Below, one piece after another: positions 41,936 through 47,727 of a stretch of 64,000 nucleotides of DNA; position 1 is the first letter of the stretch; each line of letters starts with the position of its first letter. Below the pieces are notes generated by a model. That model made no database searches and was not told the origin of the DNA. It saw nothing but the letters and a program-made list of their open reading frames with translations. A program made the position numbers and the translations under genes. This stretch comes from Halobellus inordinatus (lineage in GTDB: Archaea > Halobacteriota > Halobacteria > Halobacteriales > Haloferacaceae), in assembly GCF_024464655.1 (NCBI RefSeq), contig NZ_JANHAV010000001.1:62001-126000 (forward strand), written 5' to 3'.

Positions 41936-41952
41936 ATACTGTCGGACAGTAT
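41936..41952. repeat. 17-base palindrome at the end of the thioredoxin-reductase-like gene
   Basis: ATACTGTC-G-GACAGTAT is perfect around a central G. It includes the last base of the stop codon. Its first 14 bases are identical to 39327-39340, and 8-10 bases of it (ATACTGTCG) recur at the pilB2 and ilvA promoters where it forms a TATA context. It may be a regulator site or a transcription end signal. Confidence 0.6.
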
Positions 41953-43016
41953 CAGTCGTCGTCGGCCGGTTCGGGATCGGCGGGTTCGATCGGCGGCGCG
42001 CGCGCCTCCTCGAACTCCGCGGCGGCGGCGCGGACGCGGTTGCCGGTACTCGGCACCTCGTCGGCGCCGACGGGGCCGGTCGCCCGGAGCGTCTTGAGAT
42101 CACGCGGGAACTCCCGGAGGCCGTAGTGGATGTCGATGCCCGCCTGGGCGCCTTTGCCCATCGCGACCGGAATCTGATTGTGTCCGGGCGTGATGTCGCC
42201 GACGGCGTAGACGCCCTCGACGGTCGTCTCCATACTGTCGCTGACGACCACCGTGCCGTCGTCGTTCAGTTCGCAGCCCAACTGCTCTGCGAGCGCGTCG
42301 TTGTAGTTCGAACCGTACATCGGGAACCCGCCGCGGTACTGGCGGACGGTCCCGTCGTCGAACTCGAAGGCCTTCAGCCAGCCGTCGTCGCTCTTCTGCA
42401 TCCCGGTAATCTCGGCCTCGACGATGCCGATCGGGTGCCCGCGGAGCTGTTCGTCGGTTTCGTCGCTCCACTCGGGCGCGTCGCCGCGGAGCAGGATATC
42501 CACGTCGTCGGTGAAGTTGAGCATAATCATCGCGACGTGGGCGGCCGCCTCGCCCGTCCCCATCACGTAGACCGGACGGTCGATGAACATATACGCGTCA
42601 CAGTGGAGACAGTAGTGCAGTCCCTTGCCGGTCCGCGGTACGGGCGGGTCGGGGCGCTCGTCGTTGAATCCGACGCCGAGGACGACGCGGTCGGCCCGGA
42701 ACTCCGCGTCGTTGCCGACGAGTCGGAAGCGACCGTCGTCGGTCCGTTCGGCCTCGACGATGAAGTCGCGGACGACGTCGGCGCCGTACGATTCGATCTG
42801 TTCCTGCGCCGTCTGGAGGAATTCGTTGCCCGAGGTGTGCTCGGGGACGCCGATAACGTTGTGCGTGTCCAGCATCATCGCTGCCCGGCCGCCCCCGCGG
42901 TCGACGACAACCGTATCGTGGCCCAGTCGGGTCGTGTACAGGGCGGTCTGGATACCCGCCGGACCACCGCCGACGACGACTACTTCGTAGTCGCGTACGT
43001 CCTCTGTCTCGCTCAT
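41952..43016 (-). CDS. Thioredoxin-reductase-like FAD/NAD(P) oxidoreductase
   Basis: The 354-residue flavoprotein has FAD motif GGGPAG (residues 16-21), a redox-active pair CLHC at about 135-138 (haloarchaeal paralogues of TrxR keep CxxC), an NAD(P) motif YVMGTGEAAAHVAM, and the C-terminal FAD motif VYAVGDITPGHNQIPVAMGKG. It would reduce thioredoxin or a similar small disulfide protein in the cytosol. The stop codon is overlapped by a 17-base palindrome. The ATG is about 160 bases beyond the 3' end of the following minus-strand gene. Confidence 0.88.
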   Translation of the reverse strand: MSETEDVRDYEVVVVGGGPAGIQTALYTTRLGHDTVVVDRGGGRAAMMLDTHNVIGVPEHTSGNEFLQTAQEQIESYGADVVRDFIVEAERTDDGRFRLVGNDAEFRADRVVLGVGFNDERPDPPVPRTGKGLHYCLHCDAYMFIDRPVYVMGTGEAAAHVAMIMLNFTDDVDILLRGDAPEWSDETDEQLRGHPIGIVEAEITGMQKSDDGWLKAFEFDDGTVRQYRGGFPMYGSNYNDALAEQLGCELNDDGTVVVSDSMETTVEGVYAVGDITPGHNQIPVAMGKGAQAGIDIHYGLREFPRDLKTLRATGPVGADEVPSTGNRVRAAAAEFEEARAPPIEPADPEPADDD

Positions 43017-43179: not shown

Positions 43180-44553
43180 TCACGATTCGTGGCGGTCGCG
43201 CTCCCGCAGGCGCTTCACTGTCCGATAGCCGACGGCTCCGGCGGCGACTCCGGCGACGCCCGTTCCCACGAGTGCCGGCAGATTTCGGTCGGTACGAACC
43301 CTGCGGAGGCTCCCCGCTCCCTCCTCTGTGACTTCGAGGTCGTACTCGTGTTCGTCACCTGTCTGAATCGTCTCGGTCCGCGCCGCGTTCACGGACGCAC
43401 CGTCCGCGTCGGTCACCATCGCTGTCAGTTCGTACTCGGTGTCGGCGGTTCCGAACACGCTGATCCGGTAGGCTCCCGGTTCCGCTCCGTGCTGGCTCCG
43501 CACCCGCCCGTACTCGCCGCGACTTCGGTCCGTGTACACGCCGCGGATGCGCCCGATCTGGCTCCCGCCGGGACCGACGACGGTGAGATCGACGTCCTCT
43601 GAGGTCGCGACAACGAGCGTGAACGGGAACAGCGACTCTCGGACCCTCCTCTGGTCGACGGTGACGTGATCCATCGGCGTCGGCGCGGTGCGGTCGGCTG
43701 CGTCTTCGATCCGATCGTACCGACTGAACAGCATTCCCGTGTACTGGCCGTACTGTCGCATCGAGACGGACTCGCCGTCGCGTTCGAACTCTAACCGCGG
43801 CGAGCGCCGCCGATACGCCGAGGCGGGGAGGTTGGGATCGTAGATCGGAACGACCACACTGTCGCTGCGGTCCTCGAAGCCGTACGCCAGCACCTGATGT
43901 GAGAGCAGGGTGTTGTTGAAGAGGATGAGCGTCGCGGTCCCGAACCGCTCGATGACGTTCCTGACGTCGCGGAGGATCGCTTCCGTGTCGATCCAGTCGC
44001 GATACAGGATCGCCTGCCGTGCGAGAAACGCCCGAAACCGGAGATACTGATCGGCCTGCCGCTGTACGATTTCGTCGTACACCGGGGCGATCGGTTCGTC
44101 GACCGGAACCGTCGGGACTTCGATCTCGCTCGCGCGACGCCGGTCGACGGGGATGGTTCCTGGCCGCTCGAAGTACCGCTGGGCCGTCAGCGCCATTCCG
44201 TAGCAGTGGCCGTTCGTTCCCGCCCGCTGTACCACTGCCGCGCGGAGCTGCGTGGCGATTGCACTCACCATCGCCTGCGAGAGTGCGCCGACGTCGAGTC
44301 CGAGGACGGCCCGTGCCTGTTCGACCCACCTCGTCCGGATCCGCTCGCGGATCTCCGCTTGCGTCGGGGCGGGCGGGGAGTCGAAGTACTGGTCTTCGGC
44401 TCCCCAGTTCCGAAACCCGTAGCCGTGTTCAATCGGAGTAAACCCACCGGCGCCGCTCCCGGACTGGGCACGCGTGATTCCGGAGACCGCCCCTGCTGTA
44501 ACGGGGGCGGTCAGTCCTGCGAGAAAGCCACGCCGTGTGACACGACGACCCAT
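43180..44553 (-). CDS. Tat-exported, membrane-anchored protein with cysteine-peptidase-like motifs
   Basis: The 457-residue protein starts MGRRVTRRGFLAGLTAPV, a Tat signal with RR at 7-8, and ends with a hydrophobic helix (VGTGVAGVAAGAVGY) followed by basic residues, so it is exported and C-terminally anchored. The middle has TNGHCYGMALTA (Cys about 117), SHQVLAYGFED (His about 219) and PIYDPNLP (Asp about 238). The order Cys, His, Asp/Asn with these contexts resembles papain-like C39-type peptidases. I did not find a convincing exact family. The ATG at 44553 fits the Tat signal; the longer frame from 44607 does not. Confidence 0.8.
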   Translation of the reverse strand: MGRRVTRRGFLAGLTAPVTAGAVSGITRAQSGSGAGGFTPIEHGYGFRNWGAEDQYFDSPPAPTQAEIRERIRTRWVEQARAVLGLDVGALSQAMVSAIATQLRAAVVQRAGTNGHCYGMALTAQRYFERPGTIPVDRRRASEIEVPTVPVDEPIAPVYDEIVQRQADQYLRFRAFLARQAILYRDWIDTEAILRDVRNVIERFGTATLILFNNTLLSHQVLAYGFEDRSDSVVVPIYDPNLPASAYRRRSPRLEFERDGESVSMRQYGQYTGMLFSRYDRIEDAADRTAPTPMDHVTVDQRRVRESLFPFTLVVATSEDVDLTVVGPGGSQIGRIRGVYTDRSRGEYGRVRSQHGAEPGAYRISVFGTADTEYELTAMVTDADGASVNAARTETIQTGDEHEYDLEVTEEGAGSLRRVRTDRNLPALVGTGVAGVAAGAVGYRTVKRLRERDRHES

Positions 44554-45549: not shown

Positions 45550-47727
45550 TCAGAGCAGTGCGAAGACCACGTACGTCAGCGTCAGCAACACGGCCGCGTG
45601 CTTCAGCCCGTCCGCGACGCTCCCTTCTCCTAACTGTCCGGCGACGATGCCCGAACAGATGCCCTGGATCGCCGCGGTGTGGAAGAAGAGCAGTTCGTAG
45701 GCGTCCGTGTTGACCGTCTGGAAGCCGCCGAGGACGCCGGTGTCGACGCCGCCGATCTGGTTAGTCGAGCCCCCGGCGGACTGACTCGCGGCTTCGATCG
45801 CCGGGATGAACGAAACCGTCAGCGCGATGATGATCCCGAGGAAGACGAGAAACGAGACGTAGATGACGACGAGGTACGTCAGCATCTCCTGGCGACGCTC
45901 GCGCCGAAGCCGCCGGGTCTCTTGGGCCTCGTCGGCGGCGATGTGGAGCACCGGACTGATGTCGCCGCTTGCGGCCATCGCGTTCTTGATGAGTGTCACT
46001 GCACGTGACACCGTCGGCGTGCCCGTCCGCTGCTCTAACCCGGTGAGCGCTTCGCCGACGCTGGCGCCCCACTGGATGTCCCGCCACACCCGGCCGATCT
46101 CGTCGCCGAGCCGTCCGAGTTCGGCGTCCGAGAGCCGGTTCAGACAGCCGACGATGGTGACGCCCGCCTCGTTGATGCTTGCCATCCGGTCGAGGAAGTC
46201 GGGCATCTCCGCCTCGACCGCCCGCAGCCGTCGTTTCTGGATCTCGTGTGCGAGGGCGATGCCACCGAGGACGAGAATCATCGCCTGAACGATCGCCCCG
46301 TCGAGCAATTCGACGAGTCGCGTGAGCGCTCCCGGCGTACCCACCAGGATCCCGCCGACTGCCTCCAGTACGGCGCTGTCGATCGAGAGCCCGATGACCA
46401 GGAGTCCGACCGGACCGGTGAGAAGCAGCGTATACGTCGGGTTCCGAAGGAGTGTCCCGACGGGATTCGACAGCGTCTGTCGGACCGAGCCGATCTGATC
46501 GTAGACCGCAAGCCGTGCCCAGTTCTCGGCGTCCGCCCCGGTTCGGTCACGTACGGATCCGCCGTCGGTGACCTCGACGGCGTCGCTGTCTGCCTGTGTT
46601 GACCCGTCGTGGCGGCTCCCGCGTGCGCTGCCGACGTTCGTGGGATCGGTGTCCCCGCCGCCGCCTCCCGGGACGTTCAGGCCCTCGGTCATACTGTCGA
46701 CGTAGACGACGAAGCCGAACGTCAAGAGCGGGATCGCGGCGTAGCCCACGAGTCGGACGAGCGTGAGCGTGTCCTGAATGACGAGGCCGACGACGACGAG
46801 GACGGTGATGAAAAACAGCGGTCCGGCGACGAGGACGGTGACGTACACCTCCGCGAACGTCGAGAGGAGTTCCAGGTACTGTCGCTGTTGGGCTTCGGCC
46901 TCCTCCTGGAATCGCTCGTACTGTTCGCGCAGGAATGCTGAGACGCTCTGCCCCGACGAGAGGACGCTCGCGAGGTTCTCGGTGAACTCCTCGAGGTTCT
47001 CGCTCGGGGTCCGGCTCGCCGTGCTGTGTAACGCGGTCAGGATGTCGGTCCCGAAGGCGTTCATATCGCGAACGCTGACCCCGAGCTCTCGCGACGCCTC
47101 CCCGTAGACGTCCTGATTCTCCGAGAGCGTCCGCAACACTGCCTGGAACGGCATCCCGGACCGCGAGAGCGCGTACACGAAAGCGACCGTTCGGGGGAGG
47201 GTCGCGTCGATCTCGATGCCGCGAGCGCGGGCACGCTGGTCGAGATACGTCCAGCGGCCCCAGTAGGTCCCGACCGCGAGTGCCGTCCCGACGGTCGCAC
47301 TCGAAACGAACAACAACGCGAACAACTGGAGCAGCGAGAGTTCCGGGACGTTGACGATCGCCGCGAGAAAGCCCAGCGGTCCCGGGAGCGTCGATCTGAT
47401 CACTTCGGGACTGACGGCGAGCGAGCGCAGTATCAGCGCCCCGAGATAGACGCCGTAGACGCTTCCGGCGATGCCCGCGACGGCGGCGACTAACAGCGTC
47501 TGGGAGGCGAACACGCGGTGGCTCTCGCCAACGAACGCGGCTCGCATCCGCTCGATCTGCTGCTGTCGCTTCGGGCTCGACTCGGCGACGTACCGCCCGA
47601 AGATCGGTAGCGCCAGCCGGGAGACGACGAGACGCGCCCGTGGGCTGAACGGCACGAGCGCGACCGGGAGCGCGAGCAGCGTTACGACGACGAGCGGCGC
47701 GTAGCCGAGCAGTTCAATCGCCGGCAT
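45550..47727 (-). CDS. PilC/TadC-like membrane platform protein (second copy)
   Basis: The 725-residue protein has two T2SSF domains (about 180-330 and 500-640) with long hydrophobic segments, as in the first pilC of the window, and partial motif matches (TLPRTVAFVYALSRSGMPFQAVL; DFLDRMASINEAGVTIVGC). The C-terminus ends with two helices. The linker between domains is acidic and low-complexity. Its ATG overlaps the pilB2 stop by 14 bases, so it is the second gene of a pilBC operon. No pilin-like gene lies downstream. Confidence 0.88.
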   Translation of the reverse strand: MPAIELLGYAPLVVVTLLALPVALVPFSPRARLVVSRLALPIFGRYVAESSPKRQQQIERMRAAFVGESHRVFASQTLLVAAVAGIAGSVYGVYLGALILRSLAVSPEVIRSTLPGPLGFLAAIVNVPELSLLQLFALLFVSSATVGTALAVGTYWGRWTYLDQRARARGIEIDATLPRTVAFVYALSRSGMPFQAVLRTLSENQDVYGEASRELGVSVRDMNAFGTDILTALHSTASRTPSENLEEFTENLASVLSSGQSVSAFLREQYERFQEEAEAQQRQYLELLSTFAEVYVTVLVAGPLFFITVLVVVGLVIQDTLTLVRLVGYAAIPLLTFGFVVYVDSMTEGLNVPGGGGGDTDPTNVGSARGSRHDGSTQADSDAVEVTDGGSVRDRTGADAENWARLAVYDQIGSVRQTLSNPVGTLLRNPTYTLLLTGPVGLLVIGLSIDSAVLEAVGGILVGTPGALTRLVELLDGAIVQAMILVLGGIALAHEIQKRRLRAVEAEMPDFLDRMASINEAGVTIVGCLNRLSDAELGRLGDEIGRVWRDIQWGASVGEALTGLEQRTGTPTVSRAVTLIKNAMAASGDISPVLHIAADEAQETRRLRRERRQEMLTYLVVIYVSFLVFLGIIIALTVSFIPAIEAASQSAGGSTNQIGGVDTGVLGGFQTVNTDAYELLFFHTAAIQGICSGIVAGQLGEGSVADGLKHAAVLLTLTYVVFALL

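Follow-up and report, generated by a model that had tools for sequence, protein, structure and literature searches.

The window, by which we mean the whole stretch of 64,000 nucleotides of Halobellus inordinatus DNA that was analysed, encodes on its minus strand a real, conserved papain-like protein in which the catalytic residues are kept. The protein is probably exported, and its family is nameless in the libraries searched. The reading frame at positions 43180-44553 (-) is complete, with an ATG at 44553, a stop codon at 43180-43182 and 457 residues, and frame 1 of the plus strand across the same positions is interrupted by stops. The first-pass annotation had given these coordinates, which are exact for the ATG-to-stop frame, and had named no strand. 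The features of the gene, the protein and the neighbourhood are as follows.

43180..44553, minus strand: complete coding sequence, 457 aa plus stop; open reading frame, with homologues in other haloarchaea.
44467..44553, minus strand: Tat-type signal peptide, residues 1-29, VTRRGFLAG, putative cut TRA-Q; from the sequence, with RR in 46/47 homologues.
43654..44442, minus strand: papain-like domain, residues 38-300; AlphaFold2 model of 36-300 and structural matches.
44404..44415, minus strand: F-R-N-W motif, residues 47-50; F47 and N49 each 47/47, N49 with a possible oxyanion-hole role.
44194..44214, minus strand: nucleophile motif NGHCYGM, residues 114-120, Cys117 codon at 44203-44205; C117 47/47, at the start of helix 116-129.
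44047..44049, minus strand: Gln169; invariant, 47/47.
43882..43902, minus strand: His motif SHQVLAY, residues 218-224, His219 codon at 43897-43899; H219 47/47, strand 218-223.
43831..43842, minus strand: YDPN motif, residues 238-241, Asp239 codon at 43837-43839; Y238 and P240 47/47, directly after strand 232-238.
43285..43629, minus strand: C-terminal beta-sandwich, residues 309-423; model strands between 311 and 423, weak structural matches (Z <6).
43225..43281, minus strand: hydrophobic segment 425-443, then basic tail 444-457; putative membrane anchor by hydropathy.
45550-47727, minus strand: T2SSF (TadC-type) gene, by Pfam.
41952-43016, minus strand: pyridine nucleotide-disulphide oxidoreductase gene, by Pfam.

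The motif set described in the first-pass annotation is present in this protein, with RRGFLAG at residues 7-13, GHCYGMA at 115-121, SHQVLAYG at 218-225 and YDPNLP at 238-243, and the cysteine that had been placed approximately at position 117 is located exactly there. Since Cys117 is the sole cysteine of the protein, it has no intrachain disulfide role. Among 47 aligned homologues, 14 columns are invariant, i.e., F38, P40, G46, F47, N49, G115, C117, G119, Q169, A207, H219, L222, Y238 and P240, and the motifs are therefore more than a chance resemblance. A lack of conservation of the Cys, His and Asp had been named in advance as evidence against a papain-like enzyme, and the opposite was found: C117 and H219 are present in all 47 sequences, and position 239 is occupied by Asp in 42 of them and by Asn in the other five. 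Residue 116, next to the nucleophile, is variable (H 26, Y 19, F 2). The identity between the window protein and its homologues ranged from 22 to 60% in a 33-row alignment (A2). This alignment leaves out L031, L032, L033, L035, L037 and L038, which are copies of L002, L004, L005, L010, L012 and L018, as well as L039 (no intact frame, MAG) and the bacterial L041 and L042. The 47-row count also leaves out L089, and L036 is truncated by a contig end.

AlphaFold2 models were obtained for the whole protein (mean pLDDT 74.5, pTM 0.73) and for residues 36-300 (mean pLDDT 82.5, pTM 0.83), each of them built from only 10 sequences. In both, the Cys, His and Asp stand on the same elements: Cys117 starts helix 116-129, His219 is on strand 218-223, and Asp239 follows directly after strand 232-238. 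This predicted placement is the papain arrangement. When the domain model was compared with known structures by a second-look aligner, which only puts the candidates proposed by Foldseek into a new order, 40 of the 50 listed entries could be placed, and all 40 were papain-like, many of them being repeated entries of one protein. The best placed match was staphopain (Z 7.3, rmsd 3.5, 132 residues), with IdeS/Mac-1 and IdeC (up to 6.8), the C39 domain of PCAT1 (6.6), phytochelatin synthase (6.4) and cathepsins (about 6) behind it; all Z-scores were below 8, a range in which the tool cautions against common arrangements, and differences of less than 1 are ties. Der f 1, cathepsins B and K, falcipain, glutathionylspermidine amidase, AvrRpt2, AvrPphB, ZUP1 and a toxin titled papain-like were also among the placed entries. 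Ten entries were not placed: seven of them are CtaG entries, and the others are BtaeB, which heads the list at 7.7, C0362 and a CdiA toxin domain that we take to be papain-like. With the whole-protein model, the first five rows were Mac-1 (two), phytochelatin synthase (two) and the CdiA domain at Z 6.0-6.5, and most later rows matched the beta-sandwich. Foldseek itself found no match that reached E 0.001 with one model or the other, its best values being 0.021 and 0.060; papain-like entries were recognised in 13 of the 50 rows listed for the domain model and in none of the 50 listed for the whole protein. We accept the papain-like fold because of the make-up of the structural list, the scores themselves being moderate. 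The earlier guess of such a fold was borne out by the model topology and by this list, and no unrelated domain appeared.

The exact family, which the first-pass annotation did not recognise, received no name from Pfam, NCBIfam or PDB sequence searches either. In Pfam, the window protein had no match up to E 5, its match to an efflux transporter model of NCBIfam at E 0.2 was taken as a chance match, and neither the single protein nor the profile A4 had a match among PDB sequences. The 33 members of A2 gave Tat-signal models and scattered weak matches. The Pfam model of the papain family C1A was not among the four families matched by these members at E up to 1, and Peptidase_C39_2 (PF13529) was matched neither by the window protein nor by any of the 33. 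A match of the 33-row profile to the Ufm1-specific protease over the His/YDPN part (E 0.22) was not used. In the titles and abstract starts of the open-licence literature, no paper on a haloarchaeal GxCxGM papain-like family appeared, and the string GHCYGM was not found.

Relatives of the domain were detected beyond the haloarchaea. The haloarchaeal profile (A3) matched six proteins from archaea of the same phylum with an hhalign probability of 99.1 (E 8e-19), and the match runs through the F-x-N, Cys, His and YDPN motifs. These archaea outside the class (L051, L057, L071 and L068-L070) are probably methanogens. Like the haloarchaeal proteins, the six have F-x-F-x-N or F-x-N and GHC[YF]GM, then HAV[VL]AY or HALVVY, and then YDPN or YDSN. 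Unlike the window protein, the forms of 258-278 aa have no room for a C-terminal beta-sandwich, and the larger forms contain other regions; the N-terminal signals of these archaeal proteins appear, by eye, to be non-Tat. In addition, the large same-phylum archaeal frames L052-L056 match the beta-sandwich part of A2 (325-422 or parts of it) at E 1.5e-6 to 1.9e-5, and an HF[VI]V...DP stretch was seen by eye in L054 and L056.

Short profile matches, which are weaker than they look because their E-values come from single pairwise comparisons, connected bacterial VWA/TSP3 proteins with A3 over 30 columns around the Cys (probability 94, E 1e-7) and with the archaeal profile over 80 columns of the His/YD-N part (E 4e-10), and they brought in two further frames: L074, a haloarchaeal frame of 826 residues with GMCGGM, over 57 columns of the His/YDPN part (E 4e-12), and L073, a frame of 2472 residues, over 44 columns of the His/Asp part (probability 84.7, E 7e-6). 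L073 scores 31.4 against the Pfam cut-off of 24 for Peptidase_C39_2; in the other relatives scanned, no Pfam or NCBIfam model exceeded its cut-off for the papain-like domain. L074 (2679-5156) showed a weak match to an H-type lectin (E 0.0046, below its cut-off), and its C-terminal domain, GMCGGM...HQVLAYGY...YDPNYP, had no Pfam match. The bacterial proteins L041 (Erysipelotrichaceae MAG), L042 (Saccharibacteria) and L059-L063 have F-x-F-x-N[YF] just ahead of G[HQ]C[YF]GM, followed by HA[IMV]NA and YD[NS]N as in the haloarchaeal motif order, but differ in a long insert between Cys and His and in the VWA and TSP3 domains in front, the latter scanned in L041 and L042. All six bacterial full-length loci (L058-L063) contain F-x-F-x-N, G[HQ]C[YF]GM, HA-x-NA and YDNN. 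The unmodelled G[HQ]C[YF]GM domain forms the protein end in L041, L042 and L058-L063, and matches over almost the entire length of the bacterial form occur in 6 of the 97 genomes that belong to one order, a count that includes the genome of the query.

At the N-terminus, the Tat-type signal that had been read earlier was confirmed as the twin-arginine motif VTRRGFLA with a hydrophobic stretch. R7-R8 are kept in 46 of the 47 homologues; the one miss, L019, results from the start codon chosen, as SRR is located upstream in its open frame. Generic Tat-signal models gave weak matches, and for some members only. The first-pass annotation called Tat export of an enzyme of this kind uncommon, which is not supported: figures from a part of PMC2945643 make it ordinary in haloarchaea, where 39-55% of the secreted proteins were predicted to use the Tat pathway, while the share did not exceed 8% in the other archaea of that analysis.

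The possible C-terminal anchor proposed at the same time is compatible with the hydropathy. A Gly/Ala-rich hydrophobic segment, LPALVGTGVAGVAAGAVGY, precedes the basic tail RTVKRLRERDRHES, and its mean Kyte-Doolittle value is 1.46 over 19 residues, which is moderate. The AlphaFold2 model has no confidence in this segment, and its role as an anchor is plausible from its composition. Among the 32 long homologues, 30 have a 19-residue stretch with a mean of at least 0.85 within the last 60 residues, the exceptions being L023 and the contig-cut L036. The other 15 of the 47 are short (299-309 residues), belong to one family of the order, and have neither the beta-sandwich nor the anchor; no C-terminal stretch in them exceeds 0.46. 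A predicted anchor is thus not universal in the family. The catalytic motifs are kept in these short homologues (L030 and L075-L088), which may be released instead of tethered.

Of 391 genomes of the class, 45 were matched at E 0.001 or better. The match in G158 (L089, E 4.8e-4) shows none of the motifs in any of the six frames of 3 kb, so 44 genomes were accepted. Ten of the haloarchaeal loci are from genomes with a name, and six of these ten duplicate other loci of the set. The occurrence is patchy, with 3 of 17 genomes of the same genus carrying a homologue, and the genome itself (3.4 Mb) contains neither a second copy nor a distant paralogue. Six plasmid records, four of them from Halobaculum, encode a homologue, annotated in every case as 'hypothetical protein'; judged by matching coordinates, they are partly the same replicons as L006-L008 and L088. 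In viral contigs, 55 stretches matched the pattern, none of them encoding a relative. The neighbouring genes were assigned by Pfam as a methyltransferase, a T2SSF protein (TadC-type) and a pyridine nucleotide-disulphide oxidoreductase, and the latter two flank the papain-like gene and its methyltransferase neighbour. In a comparison of eight loci, of which L035 and L039 are unreliable because genes are poorly called there, the TadC-type gene, the gene preceding it and the oxidoreductase gene stood beside the homologue again only in Halobellus rarus (L031). A TadA-like gene, assigned by eye, is also among the genes that recur there. Since these neighbours recur in H. rarus only, the context is uninformative on function, and we draw no connection to pili from it.

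We consider it likely that the protein acts as a papain-like thiol enzyme, which would be exported in the folded state and held by its C-terminus at the outer face of the membrane. The Tat pathway would export the folded protein, and the C-terminal helix would tether it to the outer face of the cell membrane, with the beta-sandwich placed between the enzyme domain and the membrane. Cys117 would attack the carbonyl of an amide or peptide bond, the putative substrate class, with His219 as its base and with Asp239, which is Asn in some homologues as in papain, orienting His219; these predicted roles follow from the papain-like superfamily. Asn49 may stabilise the oxyanion. The F-x-N motif precedes the Cys in other archaeal and bacterial relatives too, and several structural alignments start just ahead of it (model residue 1 or 2 against residue 10 of cathepsin K or 55 of phytochelatin synthase). 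The acyl-enzyme would most likely be resolved by water, giving a cell-surface peptidase or amidase. We favour hydrolysis, since this is the activity most often found with the papain-like fold, and transfer is the main rival. Peptidase activity is not a given, because amidases, transglutaminases and acetyltransferases have papain-like folds as well, as described in passages of PMC10318531.

An acyltransferase or cross-linker would pass the acyl group to an amine or thiol at the surface, in the manner of a transglutaminase or an isopeptide/peptide ligase. The range of activities just cited would accommodate it, the structural list includes both phytochelatin synthase and glutathionylspermidine amidase, and bacterial relatives have VWA and TSP3 domains. 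However, peptidases are equally close in the structural list, where Z differences of less than 1 are ties, and we found in the sequence no pointer to an acceptor site; we regard this alternative as unlikely. That the papain-like domain is catalytically idle and serves in binding, e.g., as part of an adhesin or receptor, appears more improbable still, although beta-sandwich and VWA companions are common in binding proteins. The invariance of C117 and H219, which extends to the other archaeal and bacterial relatives, is unexpected for a dead enzyme, and the variation at the third residue (D 42, N 5) involves Asn, which is the third catalytic residue of papain itself. An unrelated fold, with the Cys and His in another role such as metal binding, would suit the lack of a significant Foldseek match and the moderate Z-scores, but three observations leave it very little probability: the model topology, the kinds of proteins in the structural list, and the profile matches that lead step by step, via L073, to Peptidase_C39_2. 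From its sequence and models, the window protein is most likely a cell-surface thiol hydrolase.

A broader proposal, which we put forward with considerable doubt, is that the protein represents an unrecognised branch of the superfamily with Asn for Gln in the oxyanion hole, which would operate at the cell surface not only in haloarchaea but also in further archaea of the phylum and in some bacteria with small genomes, and that the Tat-exported, tethered form of haloarchaea would process or cross-link surface proteins, for example those of pili or the S-layer. Sections of a review on haloarchaeal membrane proteases (PMC4343526) cover signal peptidases, prepilin peptidase, rhomboids, archaeosortase and Lon. 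An exported thiol-enzyme family, if conserved as such, would extend that list with a testable enzyme, and a name for the family would at once cover the similar domains of other archaea and of bacterial VWA proteins.

Compared with known systems, the window protein has the Cys, His and Asp/Asn in the same order and structural places as the papain-like superfamily (MEROPS clan CA, Pfam clan CL0125), but it matches no Pfam or NCBIfam enzyme model. Papain has Gln19 ahead of its nucleophile; in the window protein, the Asn of F-x-N would take this place, and the protein differs in that a long helical stretch separates the F-x-N motif from the Cys. IdeS/Mac-1 (C66), with Z 6.8, is tied with staphopain, C39 and phytochelatin synthase. 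The cut-off of the Peptidase_C39_2 model is passed by the distant archaeal relative L073, whereas the window protein and the other A2 members are unmatched by it. Beside these known groups, the window protein and its homologues apparently form an unmodelled papain-like family with the motifs F-x-N, GxCxGM, H-x-V-L and YDPN.
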